Of a stretch of 64,000 nt of DNA, positions 899-58,284 are shown piece after piece. The DNA is taken from positions 15,376,001 through 15,440,000 of the forward strand of contig OU612073.1 of the NCBI GenBank assembly GCA_914767715.1, in the 5' to 3' direction. The stretch is from Membranipora membranacea. Lineage: Eukaryota > Bryozoa > Gymnolaemata > Cheilostomatida > Membraniporidae. A model generated the notes under the pieces. The model searched no databases, was not told the DNA's origin, and worked only from the letters and a program-made list of their open reading frames with translations. Made by a program: the position numbers and the translations under genes. Numbering within the stretch: position 1 is the first letter of the stretch; every line of letters starts with the position of its first letter.

Positions 899-3808
899 TC
901 AGTGTTTCCCCACATGTAATTTTATCTTCGTCTTACTGCATGTGAATCTTGCTCTTGGCAAAATGAGGTCTTTGTCTGTGTTAGCTATAAACTGTGGAGT
1001 TTGGCTGATGCATGTCGGATCTTCCTTTTTCATTCTGCTGACAGCTTTGCTATGGATTGCAAATAAATTGGTTTTACCATCAGCCTCAGAAAATTCTTTG
1101 GCAAGTGCTCCTGTGAAAGCACCACGTATCGCAGTACCACCATATATTGTTGCTAGAAGAAGAACAGTGTTTGGACGTTCCAGCACCACATAATAGTTTC
1201 TTTGTTGGTTTTTCTCTGGTGTACTCTCAATGAAAGCTTCAGCGATCTCAGGGTCAGCCCTTCCAGTGAAGAGTTGTGCAGCTCTCTGAACTGGGATTTG
1301 GCAAGCCTGAATTGTCATAACCTGTGGCAATACAAAATGCGTAAGAGTCATTACAAACCATTGCTTTGATAATTAACGATGTGATCAGGCCTTTATTTGC
1401 TCAAATTGTTGGTGTATACGCTGTATACGTGTATTTCCGCCATTATGATTTTCTAATATCTAATGAAGCTTGTAATATACCAGATTATTACAAAAATTTG
1501 GCAATGTATACAGTCAAGTTTAAACAATCAGACCATGTGAGACACAAATTGGTGTCTCAATACCTACCAAGGGAACAACATCATCCAGGAGAGTCTGGAA
1601 AATTCTCACGACATCATTTATCGGAACTACTTCTCCTTGGCTTCCAAGAAGGCCTCCCCTGCAGCCATGGGACATTATTCCAACCATCATGAATGCGCAG
1701 CTTCCTCTAATTCGTGTCACGTAGCTATGTATCATTTCTTTGACGCCTTGACCATCAATCCAATTCATTGCCGTTGTCTCGCAACCCAGTGCCATTAAAC
1801 CCTGTTGAAATGGAAATGCTCCAAGTTACAAACTGATAAAAGTTAAGCTTTGCCAGGCTTTTCTGGTCATTCTTTAAAAGTATCAGGCATACACTCGCGT
1901 TCATCTTCTGTGTATTTTAAAATGCATCCACTCTCAACACCGTGCTAGCATTCAATCAAATTAGCTTTATCTCAATGGCCCCAAAACAAAAAGCGGGCCT
2001 TTGAAATAAGGCTCGGCTCAACGATAAACATGATATTGCCATGAAAAAGAAATTAATCATGTAATGTGTTGAATGTGCCCATTGGTGTTCAAAGAACTTT
2101 TCCTGTGCTCTTTGTAACACAGGTCATGATCTGGCACAATAGCAGCGTAGTCTTGTGCTCAACGGCTCAGATATTCGATTAAAAAGGCTTGGACCATAGA
2201 GGGATAACTCTATGGCTTGGACTATCTACTAAGACAACATGCTAGAATTTCGCTAAACCAAGAATATTGCACTCAGCCTAAATATAAGATGCTGGTGGTG
2301 TTCGGTAGTGGTAATATCCATAAAAACCATAAAACTTTATACCTGCTCAAACGCTTCCGCCTCTGCAACTGCACCTATTCTGTCTTTGGAGTTGAAAAGT
2401 ACTAGGCCATAACTTTTCATGATCTCTTGATTCCGAGGAATGATATACTGGTTACTAAAGGGTGCTAACTTCTGTATGATCTCCCTTGTCAATGGTGCAT
2501 TTCCAATAATACGTTGAAATTCTGTAAATAAAATAATGAATAGAGGCGTACTGATGACATAAAAAGGAAACTGGAAATCCCAGTGCCTCATCATCACATG
2601 ATGGTATTGGGAATCCAACATATCAAACAACAATGACGCTATTGCGAGCATAGCCTTGTGACCCTGCATCAAATGATTGACTATGCTATATGTAGACATG
2701 CAGGTGTTGTTTTACACAAGTGGTCATTAGATTAGGCAAAAGCCGACCTGTTCCACTGTAATAAAATTGATTATTAATAATCAGTGTAAAATCCCATACG
2801 CAGTAGCTCTCAACTGGTATGGGATTTTACACTGATTATTAATAATCAACTTTATTACAGTGGAACAGGTCGCTTTTGCCTATTAAAATATATAGTTTTG
2901 CAAGTAGCTGTTTCATATAATGTAAGCCTGTTAAAATTGAAAGTGAAGAATGAAGAAGATCTAGAAGAAACTTGAAACTATATTTTGTGCTTACCGCTTC
3001 TCCTATAGTCTGCATATATCTGGCCTTTATGATCTGTAGGAAATGGAAGTGCAAGGACATCAATCCATTGCTCAACAGTCAGTGAATTCCGAATCATTTC
3101 CATCATTGTTTGGACATGCTGCGTGGCTGGGATGTCTTGGATAGGTGTCAAACCACCTATATCTCGCTTTGAAACCAGATTATAACATTTGTCTGGCATC
3201 AACTTACTCAATATGAATTCAAGTGATTCAGTCTCTTCAGACATGCAGGCAAAGTGGAAAGGTGTCCTGCCCCAGTTATTCGTGATTAGAAGAAGATCAT
3301 AGAATCGGGCTCGGCCTACAGACTTGAACACAACTTTGATTGATTCATGGTTCCTCTTGATTATTGCACTGTGTAAGATAGTCGTCTCGAGTAAGCCGTA
3401 TCGGGTAGACAGCAGCTGTATCCTTTGTTTTGCAGAAACACGAGTCAGAATGTAGTGTAATGCCTTGGGGTCTAACGGAAAACCAAATAGATCACTTACT
3501 GCAGACTCGAAGTAGTAACTAACCAGGTCATCTTCCCCAGTGGGCTGTTGTCCGGTGCAGCTCATCAAGGCGCGCACAACGTCCAATTGGCCTTTCTCTG
3601 CGGCAAGATGGAATGCTGAAACATTTGTTCGGTCTTGCTCTAGCTGAAGTTGTCTTAAATCTTTTTTTACTTGCAGTGATTCAGCTTTATTGAAGTGTAC
3701 TATCCATTTCAAATAGCACCCTAGTCCTCTAAAATCACAGCTCATAAAGTAGCTCCCGTTGAACTTTATCGGACAGCAGTGATCATCTTCTGTTGGAGAC
3801 GCCTCCAT
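899..3808 (-). CDS. Ankyrin-repeat protein with C-terminal caspase-like domain (short form)
   Basis: Four exons join in frame: 3808-2995, 2521-2343, 1801-1568 and 1321-899, giving 549 aa. Residues ~1-270 carry about four ankyrin-type repeats (VSAFHLAAEKGQLDVVRALM; TTILHSAI; GRTPFHFAC; GLTPIQDI). From ~300 the sequence follows the caspase fold: an R-x-G segment (KDRIG) near the start of p20, MSHG with the candidate catalytic His376, and QAC with candidate Cys416. The usual QACRG reads QACQI. The p10 part keeps the ST-type strand and an Arg at 475 (GTAIRG) at the position of the caspase S1 Arg. There is no CARD, DED or death domain. Caspases are cytosolic Cys proteases of apoptosis and immunity; activity here is not certain. 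The ATG at 3808 was chosen as the first Met of exon 1. Intron 1 holds a palindromic MITE. It could be a pseudoprotease. Confidence 0.78.
1964..2013. repeat. Imperfect hairpin, copy 1 of a small dispersed repeat
   Basis: AGCTTTATCTCAATGGCCC faces GGGCCTTTGAAATAAGGCT. The same arrangement, better preserved, is at 22478-22520. It lies in intron 2 of ankyrin-caspase gene 1. Confidence 0.45.
2735..2880. mobile_element. Palindromic MITE flanked by TA
   Basis: Two nearly identical inverted arms of about 60 bp (termini GGCAAAAGC / GCTTTTGCC) surround a ~20-bp loop at about 2798-2817. The element is flanked by TA on both sides (2733-2734 and 2881-2882), the target duplication typical of Tc1/mariner-type MITEs. 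It sits in intron 1 of ankyrin-caspase gene 1. No coding capacity. Near-identical arms suggest a recent insertion or gene conversion. Confidence 0.75.
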
Positions 3809-22975: not shown

Positions 22976-24742
22976 GCTTGATATTTTGTTGAGTGTCAAA
23001 CATTTATTTATGATCATTGTTGTTGTCACAATTGGCAGGGTTTGGAGTAGACCTGCTTGCTACAATAATTAATACTATCCAACCAGTCCACCACTAGAAT
23101 TATGAGCAGATATCAGAGTGTATACACAGAAATGTTGAGCTGTTATTTTTGTATAGAATACTAAATTATTTACCACTCTAACTTGATATTTTTCCTCTCC
23201 TCATTCAATTTTTGATTTACTTTCACTTTAGGTTAACCTTCACCTTAGTCTAACAGCTTTCTGATTGGACTAGTCTATCTATGGATTTATTCATTGGTCC
23301 ATACAGCTAGCCAATGGAATTTCACAATTCAAATTTGTGTCTGCTAATTTTATGGTACCAAATCATGAAATACCATAAACTTTGATAATTATTGTAGTAT
23401 GACTGCCCAATTGAAGGTAGTACAGAATTTTCATACTCATGGTAGGTACTGAATTTCTTTGATAGTTTTAAATTGGTCTACATCAGCAGTGGGTAGGAGG
23501 AGGCTCAGTGAGTATATGTTCTTCAGCGCGCATGTGGAGGTCAGTCGGGTTCGGATCCTACTGCAGACTACCGACAGCTGGGGACTGTTGAGCCCTGAGA
23601 TGTGCTCCAACCTGCCTACAAACTGAGAACAAACTGACGCGGACATTGCACCCCAAAATCTTACATTTTTACCCCAGATCCTGCAGCCTTCGTGCAGGTG
23701 CCTAGTTGGCAATTCTTTTGTGTCTAGTTATTACTCGATTGTCTCATTTGATATAACATGGTATGGCCATTGCATTAATTTTGACCATAATTGCCATTCT
23801 TTATCACACTTGTAGCTACATAAATGTTAGTACATTTACCATAAACCAGCATCACTTCAAACAAGCAAAAAAATTAATCGCACCCTCAATGACAGGCTCA
23901 GCAGACTTGCTGCTCAATGACAGGTGATCACAGAACAGTACTATTGAGTTCACGTGTAGCTATGTGTTGAGGACTGTTCTTGCCTTGTAAATACTCAAAG
24001 GATAAGTTCAGTTCAAGACTCACTGTTGATCACATCAAAGATACTACTGGACTCTGACATGGAGTCGAATTTCAGGTCTCTCATGAAAAAGTGGTCAAAT
24101 TGTATAAGTGGCAAAGTCTGGTTTAGGCCTACATATTGTTCTCTACTGCTGATGCTCTTTAAAGAAATTCTATGTTTTCTGCACCAGGCCCCAGTTTATA
24201 TTGATTTAAGCTGACCTGTGTACTTAGATTGGGCCAACGGGTCATGGGCCCTTTTACTTTATCATGAGCACAATTTTGAAAATCTCTGGCAATGAAAATT
24301 TTTCGTTGCTATGAGAAAAGGTAAGTCTGATCATTCTTCTCTTCATTCCATCCTTAGCGGACTTTTGATTGTGAGGATTGGCCAACATTGTGTCATTTTG
24401 AACAAGTGAAGCAGTGTTGTGTTAAAAAATTTTCATGCAACAATCTCAGGATTTTGTCTGGAATGTTCCAGAATGCCTCTCCCTTGATCATCGTTTGCAA
24501 AAGTTTACCCCTTGCAGAACTGATCTACAGCACCCCTCCCTCCCTCACCCACCCTGCCCTCCGGGTTACAACATAACAAGCCTGGGTTCAAAAATGTCTT
24601 GCAAAAATAAGTAATAAACTAAAGAGCGCAAAATTATAATTTTGGCTAGGAAAATTATTGCGGCCTTAAGAGAAGAGCCTACTCAAAATCTGTCTTGTAA
24701 GAAAAAATTATGTTTTTTCATCTTAACTATACTACCGGTCAG

Positions 24743-24748
24743 TTTATT
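24743..24748 (-). terminator. AATAAA signal for ankyrin-caspase gene 2
   Basis: TTTATT on the + strand about 170 bp beyond the stop. Confidence 0.45.
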
Positions 24749-24915
24749 CTTAAAATTGCATGTCAGGAGGTGCGAACTCTACTCGGACCCTAGGCAATAA
24801 GTAAAATACGCTGTTCATTCAAAAGTAATGAGGTAAAGTTAATATATATTATATATTAATAACTTCACTCATATCAGTGTTACAATGAAGTTCAAAGGAA
24901 GCTGCAGTCACCATA

Positions 24916-27900
24916 TCAGATATTTGTACCATTCGGTTTCGGAAGCTCGATAACAAGTCTACTGATATTCTTATCAACGGTATATGCATGATTGGTATAC
25001 TGGGTTGATCTTGAGCTTTCTCTGACAAGTCTTGATGCATCGATGAACAAATCAAGGATATCTACTACGCACTCCGGTGCCTGCTGGCTTAATGCTTCTG
25101 GTCTGCTGCGTACTGAGCCCTGTTGCCTTGCGGTCTCAAAGTGTCGGTGATCCTCATACCCAGATAACTTTATGATGGCTTCAAGGTGGTCACTCATCAC
25201 TTTAAACAAGCACTGTTCTCTTGGAGATCTGTCAAATAATTCGAGATAATGTTTGGTAGTTGTCATATCAAACGAGCTGGTATACTACAAAAGGACAACC
25301 TTCAAGTCTTAAGGTTTTATATTGCAGTTGCATGGGTAAAACCGTAAGGCTCTGGTTTGGAAATTGAGGATTCCACCGCACTCAAGATTTCCTACTCACT
25401 TGCTATCAGGGAGTGTAGAGTACATGAGATAGCAGTGAAGTGGTAGGACAACATCAGGGAATGGATGAATCTTCCATTCTCTGGCTCGTTCCCCACTTCT
25501 CAATGGATTATTGACAGGCTCAAACTCTGATGAGTCCAGTAGAGATGGTAAGACTGTCGACTCCCAGCTGTTGTATGTTCTACTAGCTTTAGGCTTCTTT
25601 TCTTCCCTCAAACCACCTCGACAAAACGCCAGAAAGACAATCTATGAAATAAATGTTGAGTATATTGGATACAACCCGGCTATTTGATGCAGTCATGGTA
25701 GTGAACCTGTAAGCAGTAGTTGTCGCTTTTTTTTCCATCAGGTTACTCTCAAGTAAGAAAATGAATTTATAACAGTCTCTGTTATCTGTATGTCAAGGTT
25801 CATGGAATACCCCCATTCCAGTACATGTTTTATATAGTAGAGGCGACGGCGTTGGAGATGAGGATATCAATTTCTTATATGGTCAAAAGAAATCAGCCGT
25901 TTCAACTGTAACCTGACTTACCTTAGGTATTGGAGTTGATGTTGGTGAACTGGTTGCAGAAAATTTGTCAATGGCTTCTTGTACTGATATCGGTTTCCTC
26001 TCAACATCTGACATGTTGCCATCTAAGTCACCATGTCCCATTATTACGAGAGCCATCAAGTCTGTTTTTGTTGAGGTTGCAAATTTCTCGATTCCATCAA
26101 GCAGAGAGGTAGCAGAAGGATCAAGCAGTTCCTCCAACTTCAAAATAGAATAAATATCACATTAGAAAATGTAAGTAAATAAAACTGTAACTTTGGTCTG
26201 CTGAACAAGGTGCAGACGTATACAATAGTATTGGTGGTCCCAGAATCTCTAATAATATACCTGATTGTCAATTATGTGGTCAAAATTGATATGGTGAACA
26301 TTACCTCAAATGCGAGCTGACAACCTAGTAAGCGTTTAGCATCATCATACTGTACATTCCAGTTATCACGTGTTTTCCTCAACCCGTTGTCGTCAACATG
26401 GTAGGTGTAAGAAACAATCAAAGCTCTCCGCTTCATATCTCTGGTCACTATTTCAATATGATTGTCAGTGTGCGCTTTGTCGGTTGATGGGAAATTGTTG
26501 ACATGGCTGGCCAGAGTTGTATTCACCCTAACTTCTTTTATCTCTGCTTCACTAGCCAGTTCTTCTACAGAGCGATTGAAATCCACTTTGTCCGGTTTAC
26601 AAAATAGGTCTGAGATGATTTGAGAGGTAATTTGTGAGCTGCAAACAATCAAAATGAACCATAAATAATCATCAAATCAACAAATCACTGTAGTATATCC
26701 ACAAAAAAATCATAATTTGTGTAAAAAGTCATTGGAACAAAGGTAGTGAGCATACTCTGGAAATTTAACATCAAATGCTTTCTTGCAACATGTTGTACCA
26801 CTGGGTATCTCACTTGAACCCTGCTTGCTATCATACATACCTGCCAGTTGCAGACTTGTGGCATAGCAGTGATATGATAAGAAAGTCAGCACTTGGTGCA
26901 GGTACACTCAATCGCCTCCCCTCATCTGCTGCAAGTTTCCTCACAATCACCTGAAATTCGGATAAATTGCTAAGTTTGGGATTAGTAAAAATACAATTTA
27001 AATCCATGTCAGTTAGGTTGACCAGCTTTGATATAAACTATCAAATATAAAATGGATACATAGATCCTGGGATTGCAGTTCGGGATCGCAGAGTGGCAAA
27101 ACAATTTGAACTAATGTTCCCAAATTATCGATGGCTGATGTCTATAGGTATCCTTATACCACAATGGCAACGGGAAGCGACCCTACAAGCAAAGCACTCT
27201 CTAAACTGGTTCGGGCATCACAAGGATTGCTATAGTTACCTTTGGATTGCCATGCTGATCTTTCCTGTCCATCTCGAAGAGTTTCCTGTGCAGCTGATTT
27301 TGTGTGAGGTCTGTCTCATCTTCATCAATATAGAGAAAGTTGACTGGGGTACTGTATGTGTTCTAGAAAACATGATCAACATTATTTTAGCTGATGAACA
27401 AACAGTTCATTATTTCTTGATTCAAAATCAATCACTGACAATTCTTTTGATTAATTCACACTTATAATTATCAATGGCAATCCGGCAGAACCAGTGGGCC
27501 TGGTGTACACTTGCTCAATGCAATAAATTCTCTATTCCTATTTTTTATAGTCTTAATATTATCAGTTAGAGAGCATGGTCATGGCATGATGGATTTTGAA
27601 TAAAGTGGTTAGCTTGGAATACAGCTGGTAATTGTTTACGGGGAGTCTCACATACCTCATATGTATCTTTGTGATCAGAGGTGTCGAGTTCCCGTACTTT
27701 GGATGTAATTTCCATCAGGGCTGTTCCATCAGTTGCTGCCTTGTCTGTTATAACTGTTTGGTCAGTGAGATTATAAGTAAAGACAACAGCATATTCATTC
27801 ATTGCATACTTCATGACTCTGAAAATTCTCTCATCAAACTCTATCTTCAGATAGCTGCTGTCTGGAGCTGTCACAAAAACTAACCCGTCTGCATTATCTC

Positions 27901-29979
27901 CGTAAAGAATACTATCTCGGTCTTTGATTGGAAGAGAAATTCCAAAGATCATGTTATCGGGAACTGCATCTCGATGTAGTGTAACGCTCAAATCATCCTG
28001 AGATTTACTGTCAAATTGGATACTTTTGTTCCTACACAGCACATAGTTTTGGTAGAACTTTCTGTCAAACTTTCTCTTACCAACAATTGACCTACAGTCA
28101 ATGGCTGCTTTGTTTTGGGCTAGTATCACCTTCCGGCGATCTGGCAAGGAGAGACGCATCAAGAAGTTGGCGAATTCCCGGGTCTGAAATCGCCCAGCCA
28201 CATAGTTGATGGGTGTGTTCCCATATGAATCAGGAGTAATAACGTTCTGTAAGTTTATTCTCGGGCAATACTCGACTAATATCTGAATCAAGGTGTCGCT
28301 AAACGGATGCAGAAGCGCGACATGGAAGACATTCTGCTTAAGGTTATTGCAGTGTTTAAAGAGTTTCTCGACGAGTGGATCCAAATCTGTGTCTGTGTCA
28401 ATGAAAGCTAAGATCCTTTCCGCTGCCTCAGCATTCCCTTTATCTATGGCCAGTAACAATGGTGTGTTGCCAAATTTGTCAGTTTGTACAAGCATATCAA
28501 TGATGATATCCTTATAACCACCACTTGGTTCATGATATAGACTGCATATTAAGTCAACAATACTTTCGCTGCCAGATTGTTTGCCTGAAACTCGGTGAAG
28601 GACATTTTTTCCATTCTTGTCTTGCACCATAAGAAGTTTTTGCATTGCCTCTTTTGGAATTGTATCAAGTATCGCCTTTGCTATAAGCTCGTTAGCAGCA
28701 TGGTGCAGTGCTGTTGCACCCAGAATGTTCTGCTGAAAGATCAATTCTGTGCTCTTTCCCTTCCCTAAAGCATCAAAGATAAAGGACAGGCAGTCTGTCC
28801 AGCCGTGCTCACAGGCAGTTTGCAGAAGGGTAACACCATCTCGGTTAGGTGATGCTATGACATTTGCCCTTTTTTCAGCTTGTATGTATTGAATCAAAAT
28901 TCTGGCAATCTCTTCATTTCCAACACAATGTAGAGAGGTTCCACCGTATATGTCAGGCTTAAGAATGAGCGCTTGCAAGCTTTCGATGTCAAACAATGTG
29001 CATATATACTTGATAGTGTTTACCCAGCTCAAGTAGCTGGCAGTATGCAGGACAGTGCGACCATGATCGTTGTAGCGCTGGATCAACTGAGCACGCTGAG
29101 AATATGGGACAACATCGATCAAATATCTTGTCATTTCTTCATTGCATGCATAGTGAATAACATTCTGAGCACCTGTGTCATCTTGCTGAACCAATATGTC
29201 TGCAACTAGTCCAGGAAACTCACTCGCAAGGTAGTGAATTACATCTTCCCTCCCCATGCGGCAGCATTCACACAAAGTAGATCCATCAATAAAATCAGTA
29301 AGGTCAGAGCCATCTATTGTTGCAAGCATCTTTTCAAGTACAGCCTTGAATATCTCGACATTTGCAGCCATGTGCAGTGCATTTTCACCCATCCAGTTCT
29401 CCTTCAGCAGCTGTTTACCTTCAAAGCATCCTGACTGAAGCCAGTAAAAGACAAACTCGTTTTGTCCTTCATAGCAGGCATGCTGGAGTGCATCATTTCC
29501 TAAGTAATAGCTTGTTGATGACAGAATTATTAGTTTTCCGCTCGGCGCAAGATTTCTCAGCAGTATATCGACTATTTCTATACTTTCGATATCTTTAATC
29601 CCTACTGTCATCACCAGACCTGTGCCATATGCGTCAATGAGTGCTTTGAGGGCCGCAGCTGAGTTGTTATCTATGAGTTGCCTACAGTTTTTAACAACTG
29701 CTGAAGCCTGAAAATTGCATTAACATAATGTTTATTATTTAAAAGAGAGTACTTTGCTGGCAACAATTCAAACATATGTTATCAATAACAACACATGACT
29801 GGTTTGATAAATTTGCGGTGTGCGAATGTACACACAAGTTGTATTCCACATTGATAAATAGAAAAATTCAATAAGTAAGGGCCCAATGCTGATGAGATTA
29901 TAGCACAACTTACCTCATTGTCAGACAGATTAGACCACTTTGCACTGTTTCCATTGATAATTTCTTCCGCGGATGTCAT
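24916..29979 (-). CDS. Large ankyrin-repeat protein with C-terminal caspase-like domain
   Basis: Eight exons fit in phase: 29979-29914, 29707-27656, 27362-27240, 26950-26841, 26638-26305, 26137-25922, 25641-25400 and 25276-24916, giving 1167 aa. Residues ~60-540 are a long ankyrin array (GNDALQHACYEGQ; GENALHMAAN; GRTVLHTASY; GGTSLHCVGN; GVTLLQTACEHG; GATALHHAAN; GKNVLHRVSG; GNTPLLLAID; GNTPINYVAG). About 300 residues of unknown type follow. The caspase part begins at RRALIVSY (~855). MGHGD carries candidate catalytic His930 and LAFCRGG candidate Cys974. p10 contains YSTLP, followed by a ~110-aa tail. The canonical QACRG Gln is Ala here, and the S1 Arg after STxPG appears replaced (NSFD). The last acceptor (ACCAG at 25277) was chosen because the stronger TAG 8 bp upstream breaks the frame. 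No CARD/DED seen. Activity and specificity are unproven. Confidence 0.82.
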
Positions 29980-31010
29980 GTTACATGGAAGGAACTGGGT
30001 ATTTTTTCAGGGCTGTAGACTTTAGCTTGGAATGCGTAGCAACAAGCAGATACCCCAGCAAATATCCCTATGCAGACAGAATGGCAGGTAGTTTGCCACA
30101 GCAAGCTGTAAATGCTTCTTCTATATGTCGGATATCACCCACTACTATTAGTTAGGTAATACTAGACTATGGATTGATTTTATTGCGCAGCTTATGTAAT
30201 GTAGGATCAGAGTAGTTTTGTTTCATGTAATGTAATGATATAAAGTCCTTTTTACAAAGTGAGCAAGGAACGCTTGAATAGACCATCAATCAAACACAAT
30301 ACACCTTTATCAATAAAGATCTGGCTACAGCTCAGCATTATGCAATGTGCTTGCAGCTCAAAGTACGAATTAGAGTTTTTGACATGGTTTTCCCCCTGTA
30401 TATGTAATTATAGATACCCAATAGTTTTGCTTGTTTGAAGCGCAGACCGAAGACATTTTCCAAAAACAATAAGACTTTCATAATAACAATGTACAGAATA
30501 GATTTCAAATTCACTTTAATTATACATCGTTTTAGTCATAGCAAAAGTCACCTATAATGCAGGCTGAATCATTTGCCATTGTGATTACCCATAATGCACC
30601 ACCTCATGAATGTAATCAGCTTTGATGTAACACATTCATAAAGTCTGCTACACAAACACATCTGTGTGACCTTGGAATGAATAACACTGTTTTGGTCCAC
30701 AGCAACATATTCACGTGTAGACTTCACTGCAGGTCTGTGCGAGTATTTTGTTATTACAAAACGCTGTGCTGGAAAATCAAAATTTTTGTGTTTCACATTT
30801 TAATTGATTTGACTTCTCCCCCGACCAATAATTGGACATTTATATGCCCAAAATTTTTCTTTTCATGCATACAGTGAAATAAAGTGTGATGAATCGAAGC
30901 TATGACAAACAAGCCGTCTGTTATCAATTTATTGAGCGTAAAAAATGCTCTGCCTATACACAGGGACATTCTCCCTGCTATACAGAACATCCGAGTTGTG
31001 GAGTCTTCCT

Positions 31011-31465: not shown

Positions 31466-34400
31466 GTGATGAAATATAGCTACTACACAAAGATTTATCC
31501 TCTGGTATTACACGGAAGACAAAAACCTGGAAGGTCGAAGATGGGTGAATGTCCTATCTGTTGTGATGAAGACACAACATTAAAGGCACTGCCATGTTGT
31601 CGAAATAAAAGCTTGTGTGTGGATTGTTTAAACAGACTAGAGCTGAAGGACGAACAGACATGCGAGTGTCCATATTGCAGAGAGGTAAGTAACCATAAGT
31701 CGACTTACTCAATCTCAACAAGAATTAATGATTACTAACGAGATTTACCAAATGATGAAAAAAAATTGGGGCTTTTCAACCACTTTGGTAGCTTGTCCCT
31801 CTCACTTCCACCTACATTGATTCACACAGCAGATTGATTGAATCCAAGCCTATAATTGAAGCGTCTTCACCAGAAAGCCTTAGTCGATGAATGAAAAGTA
31901 GTGTGGTAGGAGTTAGAGACACCTTCATACCGACCAATAGTAACATCGAATATTTATGAATTGTTTAATGTTTTACCAGGCTTTCAGTATTCCTGAGGGA
32001 GGATTTGCAAATCTCCCAGATGCAGAGTTGTTTGCCGAAAGCAGCATAACAGCCGTAAAAGGTAAGATGCTTTAACAAAATCACTTGTTGAAGTTTTTGT
32101 CTCATCATGTTTGCATTTCCTACAAGTTAAAAGCCTCTATTACTTTCTTTTTGTGGTAGGATCATGCCTATATTTTCAAATGATCACTGTTTTAAAAAAC
32201 ACTACCTGCTAGTCCATGTCATATAACGTATTTTGATCCGCTTTATTTTTAGACCATACAGAGTCAAGTTGTAGCCAGGCTCTGAAAAACGCATTACATA
32301 AGGCCAGAGCTGCAGCCAGGCTGGCTGAACAAAAGGTGAGCCTAAATTGTGTCGGAGATCAAATTAAACTCATAAAGTCAATAGTTTAGGGGGAGAGCTA
32401 CCATCAAACTATCATGGCTCAACTAGATACCGCCCTCTAATGCTTGAATAAATGTGTTACATTGCATTTGGACCTAATGATTAGCGTTTGAAGCAGGAGG
32501 GTGGCCAAGGACTGAGGAGGTCAGCAGGAAATCACTCCAGAATTATTGAATTAAAAGGTTTTCTTGTTTATCCAGATTGAGAGATGTTCCCTTCAGCAAG
32601 TTCGTCTTCGTCAGGAGCAGGAGCTACTTGAGGATGTCATCGATGAAATGAGGAACAATGAGATTCCGGATGAGCAGATAGAGAGAAAGGTAAGACTAAA
32701 TAACCTCGCATAATATTATTCACATTCAATTTTGTCACCCATAGGCTAATTGAAGGTTTCTGGCTACCTGACTACCTGGCTAACACACCCCTTAAAATAG
32801 CGGGCTTACCTATTGACGACATCAAACTATTCTCTTTTGGGATAATGGCGTAATCGGTTAGCGCCCTTGCTATTCACTGTCAGGCAATTGGTGCCTCAGG
32901 AGTTGTTGGTTCGAGCCCCACTGGATCATGGAGGAGCTCTCAAAGGTTGTTTGCTCCAGCCCTCAGCACCCCGGGTGAATACTTCTCCCCGGGGGTTGGC
33001 CTGTGGAGCTGTCCTGAACAATGGTAGCCGTGAATCAAAGACTTACTAATGTAGCACATGATCCCTTTCCATGCAAGGTCAGCGCCTCACCTCAACGGTT
33101 GCGCTAAGATTGAGAATGGTAGGTTGGTATTGGCGTGCCTGCAAGTCATGTTGTTTCCAGTTTCGCTACCGTCAAGATTTCCTACATTTAAATCCACAGC
33201 TGGATTGGTTTTCGACCTGTTGTAATGCTTACAATTTTAGAAAGCAGCTATTGATGAGATGACCCAACAAAAAGTTGAAAAGATGGAGTGGAGAGAAGCT
33301 CAACTCAAGTCTTCATTCGTCAAATTGAAAGAGCTTATCTCCAGGATTGAGATATTGAGTACTAAGCCAGATGGACGATTGTATGAAAAGAAGTTGGAGG
33401 TAAAATTGAGGAAATTGGAGAGATACCTGCAGGAGCTGGAGCAGTTATTATCACCACCAGGTGAGCTTCTTGTGTGACAAAATATGAGGCAATTATGCTG
33501 ACACATAGTTATTTTGCTACTCTAACTAGAAACAGACTTGCAACTTGTTTAACCCTAATAAGAAAATCAAATCGAACTTGTTATGGTTATTGACCCCCCC
33601 CCCCCCCCGGCAATTTCGTCCTTAATCTATATACTGAGATGCTGAGCCATAGACAGAATGGCTTTTCATAAAACGCAAAACTTTTGCTGTAATGTTCGCT
33701 AAGGAATATTGGCCATTATGATGTTAACTGTTATCATAAATTTACACCCCAAGAACTCTTCAGCACCCTCAGTGTTGAATGAGGCAACTCCAATGTTATC
33801 ATATTGAATGTGCAGTGTTGCTATGGAGATGCTCATTCGGAAAGTATCTCATGATCAACAACAATTCTATTTCTGTCAATCTTCTGTAGATTTCTTATTC
33901 CTAGTATTCAGTGCATTCAATTTCCAGTTGTCTAAGTGTGTTGAATAGATTCAGAGCAGACCTTTTAATGTTTTAAATAATAATTATTCATTTCCTTCTC
34001 TCTAGGTGAAGGTTTTAGAGCTGGTGATAGTGTGACCCTGAGTTTAAATGTGGAACAGCTTATGCCGGATTTCTTGAAGACAGATCTGACACATTCGGAT
34101 GTTGGTTACATTCATGCACTTGATGAAAACCAAGACCAGGTATCTAAACCACTTCCTTCTCAGTTATGCCAAGCCAGTCACGCCTATTGGCTAAGATCAA
34201 AGTGTCACTGCCAATGGCCGATTAGTGCCAGTTCAGTTTTGGCAGCTTGCTGCACACTCATGATTAGGAGGTCTTCTATGGCCTTACCTCTAGGATGCAT
34301 TCTAGTTTTTTAGGATGTACCACATTCTCAGTATGAGGATTTGGGGCACCTTCCGTCCCTCTTTAGGGGCAGCCCAATCTTCTGTTTCTTACTAAACAGC

Positions 34401-37499: not shown

Positions 37500-38470
37500 G
37501 GCAATAATGCTAGACTTTTCTAAATAATTCGACAAAATGTGTCCAGCTTTCGCTGTCAAGAAAATTTTAAAACTGAAAATAGATGGCTATCTTGTAGCTA
37601 TTGTTCAGGACTTTCTCTCTAATAGAGAACAGTGTGTAAGGTTTCGCAACAAAAAATCCAACTTCAGTCCAATCAATATAGGTGTCCCCAAGGGACAGTA
37701 CTAGGTCCTCTACTCTGGAATGCATTTATCGATGACTTGTCACCACCAACACCACAACTAAGTACGCCGATGACACAACTTTATACCATCTGCTATCAAA
37801 ATCTAACTGTCTCATGACTGACTCTACTGCTCGTCGGGCAACTGTGACCATCAGCGAGAACCACCTTCAAAGAGCACTCGATTACACCTATCAGTACTGC
37901 ACTGATAACTTTATGCTGTTGAATGTGAACAAAACTCTCTCCATAAACTTCACTTTGCAAAAACACTCACCATTGACACCTATAACATCAATCACTCTGA
38001 AATACTCTACACCCCAAATGTGAGGCTCCTTGGTGTGATATTTGATGGGCACCTGAAGTTTCACTCCCATGTAGACCATATCATTGACAAAACAAAACAT
38101 TCTCTTCATAGTCTTTTAAAGCTAAGACAAGCTGGTGTGAGATCTCATTCACTGATGTTATTTTACAAAGCTGGAATTTTATCGGTTTTATCATATGCAG
38201 CCCCGTGCTGGTTCCAGCACACCTCCCAAAATGTTGAGGATAAACTGGAGTGATTTCAAAAGCTCTGAACCAGAATTATGATTCAATATGAGGAAGAGTA
38301 CGCAGAGAGACTTTCTTTACTAAAGATCGAAGAACTAAAAATACATCTTGATATTCTTTGTTTTCGATATAATTATTCAGAATCAAATATGAGAATCATA
38401 TATGAGAATCATATATGAGAATCATACGTGCAAAATATTTTTGGAAGCCCGAAATCACCGTTCCATAAAT
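37500..38470 (+). pseudogene. Degenerate non-LTR retrotransposon reverse transcriptase (CR1/L2-like)
   Basis: Reading across frames shows LDFSK-stop-FDK, DFLSNREQ, GTVLGPLLWNAFIDDL, the catalytic YADD box (37763-37774) and a downstream RLLGVIFDGHLKFHSHVDHI block with YKAGILSVLSYAAPCWF. Several frameshifts and in-frame stops (for example in place of the Ala of SKAFD) show it is dead. 5' truncation is typical of this class. No tandem 3' tail recognised. Confidence 0.85.
38388..38428. repeat. Short tandem repeat, unit about 17 bp (ATATATGAGAATC)
   Basis: Three near-identical ATGAGAATCATA units at the end of the retrotransposon remnant. Confidence 0.6.

Positions 38471-47952: not shown

Positions 47953-58284
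<10,332 letters not shown>

Follow-up and report, generated by a model that had tools for sequence, protein, structure and literature searches.

Described systems closest to a predicted ankyrin-caspase protein

In the best-known animal pathways the sensing, adaptor and protease functions belong to different proteins, which meet through death folds. A 64,000-nucleotide stretch of the genome of the bryozoan Membranipora membranacea (contig OU612073.1, positions 15,376,001 to 15,440,000; this whole stretch is called the window) carries on its minus strand a predicted gene, here named gene A, which would join an ankyrin-repeat array, a middle region and a caspase domain in a single chain. A second ankyrin-caspase model, gene B, was identified in the same window. 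Initiator caspases (CARD or DED) and CED-3 resemble gene A in having a long N-terminal interaction region before the C14 domain, and the large-subunit part of gene A aligns to caspase-2, caspase-9 and CED-3; gene A differs in that Pfam lists neither CARD nor DED for it at E<=1.

No description of an animal ankyrin-caspase was found among the open-access papers listed in the searches, although one may exist in other papers or in protein databases; the string "ankyrin-caspase" in PMC13429693 is the name of a UPA-CARD domain and not a fusion. The preliminary description of this locus had stated that animal caspases carry CARD, DED, death or no prodomains and that no family with ankyrin repeats in that place was known. 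The second statement stands for the papers searched, while the first was too narrow. The legend to a tree of 160 metazoan caspases gives CARD, DED and NHR as partner domains, NHR being found in anthozoan caspases (PMC11251625), while caspases with double-stranded RNA-binding parts are described from bivalves (PMC7836458) and with LRR and TNFR parts from amphioxus (PMC2575513). In all of these the recognition part is fused directly to the caspase, as in gene A, and the available text reports no ankyrin repeats (PMC7836458, PMC11251625, PMC2575513).

Caspase-X of the coral Acropora millepora (AmCaspase Xa-Xd), a type which is described as apparently confined to corals, contains an inactive and an active caspase in one chain and lowers the viability of HeLa cells, its live domain alone killing more (PMC4715348). 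In caspase-X an N-terminal caspase-like region without His and Cys precedes the active domain, as is probably the case in gene A, but no ankyrin array is mentioned for it in the available text and its active domain is typical (PMC4715348). In gene A two residues of the Asp pocket appear lost and the first domain is recognized only weakly. If the middle of gene A is a dead caspase, the protein would be an ankyrin, pseudocaspase and caspase chain, like coral caspase-X with a sensor added. In the c-FLIP/caspase-8 pair a dead caspase partners an active one, but there the two are separate proteins rather than a single ankyrin-repeat chain (PMC11121540).

Other systems share single elements with gene A. 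A figure legend on the NLR-type genes of the sponge Dysidea avara includes CASc (caspase) among the domains, and NACHT-Ank architectures are mentioned; these are described as NACHT proteins, and the available text mentions no ankyrin-caspase without NACHT (PMC12909245). For gene A, Pfam listed no NACHT. Amphimedon has many proteins with death-fold and TRADD-N parts which end in ankyrin repeats, with no caspases mentioned in the part available (PMC8195603). Transcripts for ankyrin-repeat, CARD and death-domain proteins rise in sponges given microbial patterns (PMC6208332), which is consistent with the proposed mechanism but says nothing on gene A. Gasdermin-controlling systems of fungi contain S8 or CHAT proteases joined to WD40, TPR or ANK repeats (PMC12881547). 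These resemble gene A in joining a repeat sensor to a protease in a cell-death setting, but the fungal protease is a subtilase of family S8 or a CHAT protease, while that of gene A is an animal-type caspase.

Predicted structure and domains of genes A and B

Gene A was reconstructed by splicing from positions 29979 to 24916 of the minus strand as eight exons, joined at GT-AG borders and in consistent phase, giving 1167 codons and a stop (Table 1). An alternative acceptor AG for exon 8, eight bases upstream of 25276, was rejected because it puts stops in frame. Codon usage was scored with exon 2 and gene B as the training set, of which seven exons are thus independent. For all eight exons the score was above zero in the predicted frame (0.02 to 0.22 bits per codon, lowest in exon 7) and below zero in the two others, while each of the seven introns was negative in all three frames. 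Two of the joins involve no splicing inference, namely that between ankyrin array and middle, which lies within exon 2, and that between middle and caspase domain, within exon 5. Since the exons code only in the predicted frame and two of them cross domain boundaries, separate genes are unlikely.

An arrangement of two adjacent genes, in which the ankyrin gene would end in intron 2 and the caspase gene would follow it, could nevertheless be drawn from the frame of exon 2, which stays open for 29 codons into intron 2. In three protein searches, each of which scored about 8000 candidates, the same gene from another assembly (P0001) was recovered, called in just this way; its exon 2 is near-identical (3 differences in 652 residues) and also open. 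Because P0001 reads into intron 2 it represents genomic and not transcript evidence. Against the single-gene reading, polyadenylation-type signals (AATAAA/ATTAAA) also occur within the gene, at 29736 in intron 1 and at 29599 and 28259 in exon 2. Intron 2 itself, however, scored as non-coding in all frames, begins with a GTATGT donor and contains no AATAAA/ATTAAA; from 24300 to 30100 on the gene A strand the only such signal below 28259 is the AATAAA at 24748, after the stop codon. With gene B modelled as having the same architecture, two adjacent genes are very improbable. That gene A is a decayed pseudogene or an assembly artefact would fit its being a single locus, but 1167 codons run without a stop or frameshift and the frame of the second exon 2 sequence is open as well, which makes this explanation the hardest of all to credit.

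The whole protein was matched by Pfam Ank_2 with an E value of 1.7e-28 in nine stretches. Twelve LHxA-type motifs, chosen by eye and positioned by script, lie at residues 94, 131, 165, 204, 240, 279, 315, 354, 390, 437, 481 and 520, with a spacing of 34-47. Over much of the array (27656-29707, minus strand) the repeats alternate between 36 and 39 residues, so that a two-repeat period near 75 is seen. An AlphaFold model of exon 2, made from two sequences, had a mean predicted local distance difference test (pLDDT) score of 54. It was usable in the array, where helices were paired and block means rose as high as 89; after exon residue 449 the score was below 50 and the model uninformative. A Foldseek search with this low-confidence model returned ankyrin-repeat or DARPin structures as its ten best matches (best E 7.9e-6). 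The ARCs of tankyrase are ankyrin clusters. No CARD or DED prodomain was found by Pfam on the whole protein at E<=1, ankyrin families alone being returned, and no NACHT was listed.

The last 324 residues of gene A matched Pfam Peptidase_C14 at 45.7 bits (cut-off 21.4; E 8.5e-12). The best sequence match of the C-terminal part in the PDB was a reconstructed ancestral caspase-6 (E 3.6e-5), and CED-3, caspase-2 and caspase-9 were also matched. Both catalytic residues are kept, His930 in GHG (929-931) and Cys974 in FCRGG (973-977), as is the arginine of the large-subunit pocket, Arg874. Judged by these residues and matches, the domain would work like a caspase-fold protease. PADLOC gave no match for the caspase part of either gene.

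Against the caspase assignment, Peptidase_C14 did not appear at E<=1 when the whole 1167-residue protein was submitted to hmmscan. In the active site the usual QAC is replaced by AFC, with Ala972 at the position of the pocket glutamine, and in an alignment with caspase-9 SWR falls on SF and the small-subunit arginine lies opposite a gap. The caspase pocket for P1 Asp consists of three residues, Arg, Gln and Arg, and only Arg874 is retained in gene A. Because two of the three appear lost, Asp specificity, and with it an Asp-directed activity, is doubtful. The same substitutions, with GHG in place of SHG, would suit a C-terminal domain that is proteolytically dead or of other specificity, the protein then being a regulator or decoy. 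Both catalytic residues and Arg874 are retained, however, and an Asp pocket is not needed for activity in metacaspases and paracaspases; this explanation is considered improbable.

Gene B, which is absent from the preliminary description, was modelled on the minus strand from 3808 to 899 as four exons encoding 549 amino acids, with ankyrin repeats and a caspase domain and without a large middle region. Pfam matched the whole protein with Ank_2 (3.6e-10) and C14 (7e-15, 55.8 bits). The catalytic pair, His376 and Cys416, lies in canonical SHG and QAC motifs, and the pocket has Arg319 and Gln414, with Arg475 as a candidate chosen by eye. When gene A alone served to train the codon score, all four exons scored above zero in frame and below zero in the other frames, and the three introns were negative. 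Less favourably, the join of ankyrin repeats to caspase rests on one splice (intron 1), AATAAA occurs in intron 1 (2856) and intron 3 (1397), and a check of the sequence between the stop codon and position 500 found none. The catalytic cysteines of both genes (Cys974 and Cys416) are the seventh residue after a phase-0 intron, and by this feature the two share a gene plan. A tblastn search with both genes found no third ankyrin-caspase copy in the window. One further sequence, P0002, matched gene B with an E value of 3.6e-3 (25% over 22% of the gene B protein). A 61-nucleotide inverted repeat (2739-2877), 95% complementary with a 17-nucleotide loop, lies in intron 1 of gene B and resembles a small foldback mobile element.

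The ankyrin-caspase architecture of gene A is very probably real, and gene B lends it weaker support. The preliminary description had derived one 1167-residue protein from phase-consistent splicing, with at least nine ankyrin repeats and a caspase-like domain bearing GHG and FCRGG motifs, and had named C14 and ankyrin profile searches as a check. The eight exons rebuild an identical product, nine Ank_2 stretches and 12 motifs were counted, and the C-terminal fragment gave the C14 match that the whole-protein query did not. It had also allowed that ankyrin and caspase exons might belong to separate genes, against which the coding scores and the boundary-spanning exons argue.

The middle region and a proposed mechanism

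The region of about 300 residues between array and caspase domain (residues ~555-845), previously left unassigned, indeed had no Pfam or PDB match, but intron phases and an intron-anchored block suggest that it is a decayed caspase domain, a reading which is favoured to a modest degree. Its three introns have phases 0, 0 and 2, the identical order to the three of the active domain, and the sole PK dipeptide in residues 641-845 abuts a phase-0 intron, as does PK 966-967 in the active domain. A caspase-like order can be followed by eye: YAVVFTY resembles the strand RALIVSY, GNPK|VIVRKLA (the bar marking the intron) stands where caspases have GKPK-VFIIQAC, and ADFLI is as in caspase strand 5. An ungapped block of 34 residues anchored on the intron was compared with known caspases in a test that was not blind, the PK match having been noticed beforehand, and gave p values of 0.0014 (CED-3), 0.0012 (caspase-1), 0.012 (caspase-3), 0.083 (caspase-7) and 0.0014 (caspase-8), and 0.0056 against the active domain of gene A. 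The corresponding block of gene B gave a similar range against the five caspases (p 0.0006-0.0076). Among 19,903 six-frame windows, 23 scored as high as the middle block. Since Ala754 occupies the position of the catalytic cysteine and no His motif was seen, the middle, if it is a caspase domain, would be catalytically dead.

A considerable number of results do not favour this assignment. Besides the absence of Pfam and PDB matches, NCBIfam returned a single line (E 0.12), well short of its cut-off and attributed to chance. The anchored block gave p 0.32 against gene B, and ranked third among 1133 windows of protein A; the active block and, by a small margin, one ankyrin window scored higher against the caspases. 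A hidden Markov model of five caspases scored the middle at -0.5 bits, a value reached by 214 of the 845 shuffles reported (1000 made), and in motif scans for strands 4 and 5 at least as high a score was obtained with 494 and 3191 of 5000 shuffles, respectively. Unanchored segment alignments were mostly not significant (best p 0.008 among 21 tests); for the strand-5 block p was 0.045 against the active domain and 0.07-0.58 against the references, and for the strand-1 block it was 0.18. These tests are of limited sensitivity, as many of them also fail to pick up the undoubted caspase parts of genes A and B, mainly in the small-subunit part. BLASTP of the middle against the active domain was uninformative (best E 1.1), and one scan each of viral and genome contigs with a query of middle plus caspase confirmed no relative. 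A plain MAFFT alignment of the caspase-like regions was discarded, its motifs being out of register.

The same negative searches, and the lack of a comparable large middle in the gene B model, would also be expected if the middle were an unrelated domain or a linker and gene A a two-module sensor and protease without a pseudocaspase. The repeated intron phases, the PK at the intron and the anchored block stand against this alternative, which is regarded as unlikely.

With the middle taken as a decayed caspase, gene A could be a single functional gene of animal type which encodes a signal-gated caspase. The array of 12 repeats would replace a CARD or DED prodomain and bind a partner or ligand, and the dead domain would pack in cis on the C-terminal caspase domain, as c-FLIP does with caspase-8. 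Binding at the array would cluster or open the molecule and free the live domain, which through His930 and Cys974 would cut substrates further downstream; cell death or defence is the probable setting. The exon structure, the ankyrin array, the caspase domain with its two catalytic residues and the gene B model can be read from the sequence, whereas the sensor function of the array, the nature of the middle, the cis pairing, the trigger, the substrates and the role are inferred. The chances of such an ankyrin sensor with a dead and a live caspase in cis appear evenly balanced. That there is a family of ankyrin-gated caspases, in which gene A combines sensor, dead and active caspase in one chain and Asp may no longer be required, is put forward more tentatively, at somewhat less than even chances.

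Neighbouring features and significance

The coordinates of both genes are collected in Table 1.

Table 1. Exons of genes A and B and the polyadenylation-type signal of gene A; positions are those of the window.
Feature	Positions	Strand	Content
Gene A exon 1	29914..29979	-	start codon, 22 codons
Gene A exon 2	27656..29707	-	684 uninterrupted codons; complete ankyrin array and first part of middle
Gene A exon 3	27240..27362	-	middle region; ends ...GNPK immediately before phase-0 intron
Gene A exon 4	26841..26950	-	middle region, VIVRKLA...ADFLI; Ala754 at position of caspase catalytic Cys
Gene A exon 5	26305..26638	-	end of middle and start of caspase domain
Gene A exon 6	25922..26137	-	caspase large-subunit part, GHG (His930); ends ...PIPK
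Gene A exon 7	25400..25641	-	FCRGG (Cys974) up to start of small-subunit part
Gene A exon 8	24916..25276	-	small-subunit part, C-terminal tail, stop
AATAAA polyadenylation-type signal	24743..24748	-	3' of gene A stop codon
Gene B exon 1	2995..3808	-	ankyrin repeats
Gene B exon 2	2343..2521	-	linker and start of caspase domain
Gene B exon 3	1568..1801	-	SHG (His376)
Gene B exon 4	899..1321	-	QAC (Cys416) and small-subunit part

Elsewhere in the window, an exon for a RING-type zinc finger was noted at 31541-31735 of the plus strand (zf-C3HC4_3 at 21.7 bits, below the cut-off of 27), forming the start of an apparent multi-exon gene which diverges from gene A. A transfer RNA (tRNA)-like pair of A-box and B-box (GGTTAGCGC...GGTTCGAGCC) at 32856-32917 (plus strand) was not called as a tRNA by ARAGORN and looks like a tRNA-derived short interspersed element. 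An open frame at 37909-38253 (plus strand) resembles by eye the end of a reverse transcriptase of a long interspersed element, with no Pfam match at E<=0.01, and an exon of Glycosyl hydrolase family 47 (1.4e-16) lies at 49081-49422 of the minus strand. Rfam (gathering threshold) and tRNA scans were empty, and a bacterial promoter scan upstream found none, as one would expect in a eukaryote. The animal-type caspase and the spliceosomal introns are in keeping with an animal host.

With an ankyrin sensor of its own, a caspase would bypass the adaptor. If the proposed reading of gene A is true, a ligand-binding solenoid would be coupled in cis to the c-FLIP/caspase-8 control pair, and the presence of a dead partner in the protein would demonstrate that c-FLIP-like control can arise in one chain outside corals. 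One window holds two genes that differ in their middles and in their active sites, which makes the idea directly testable.

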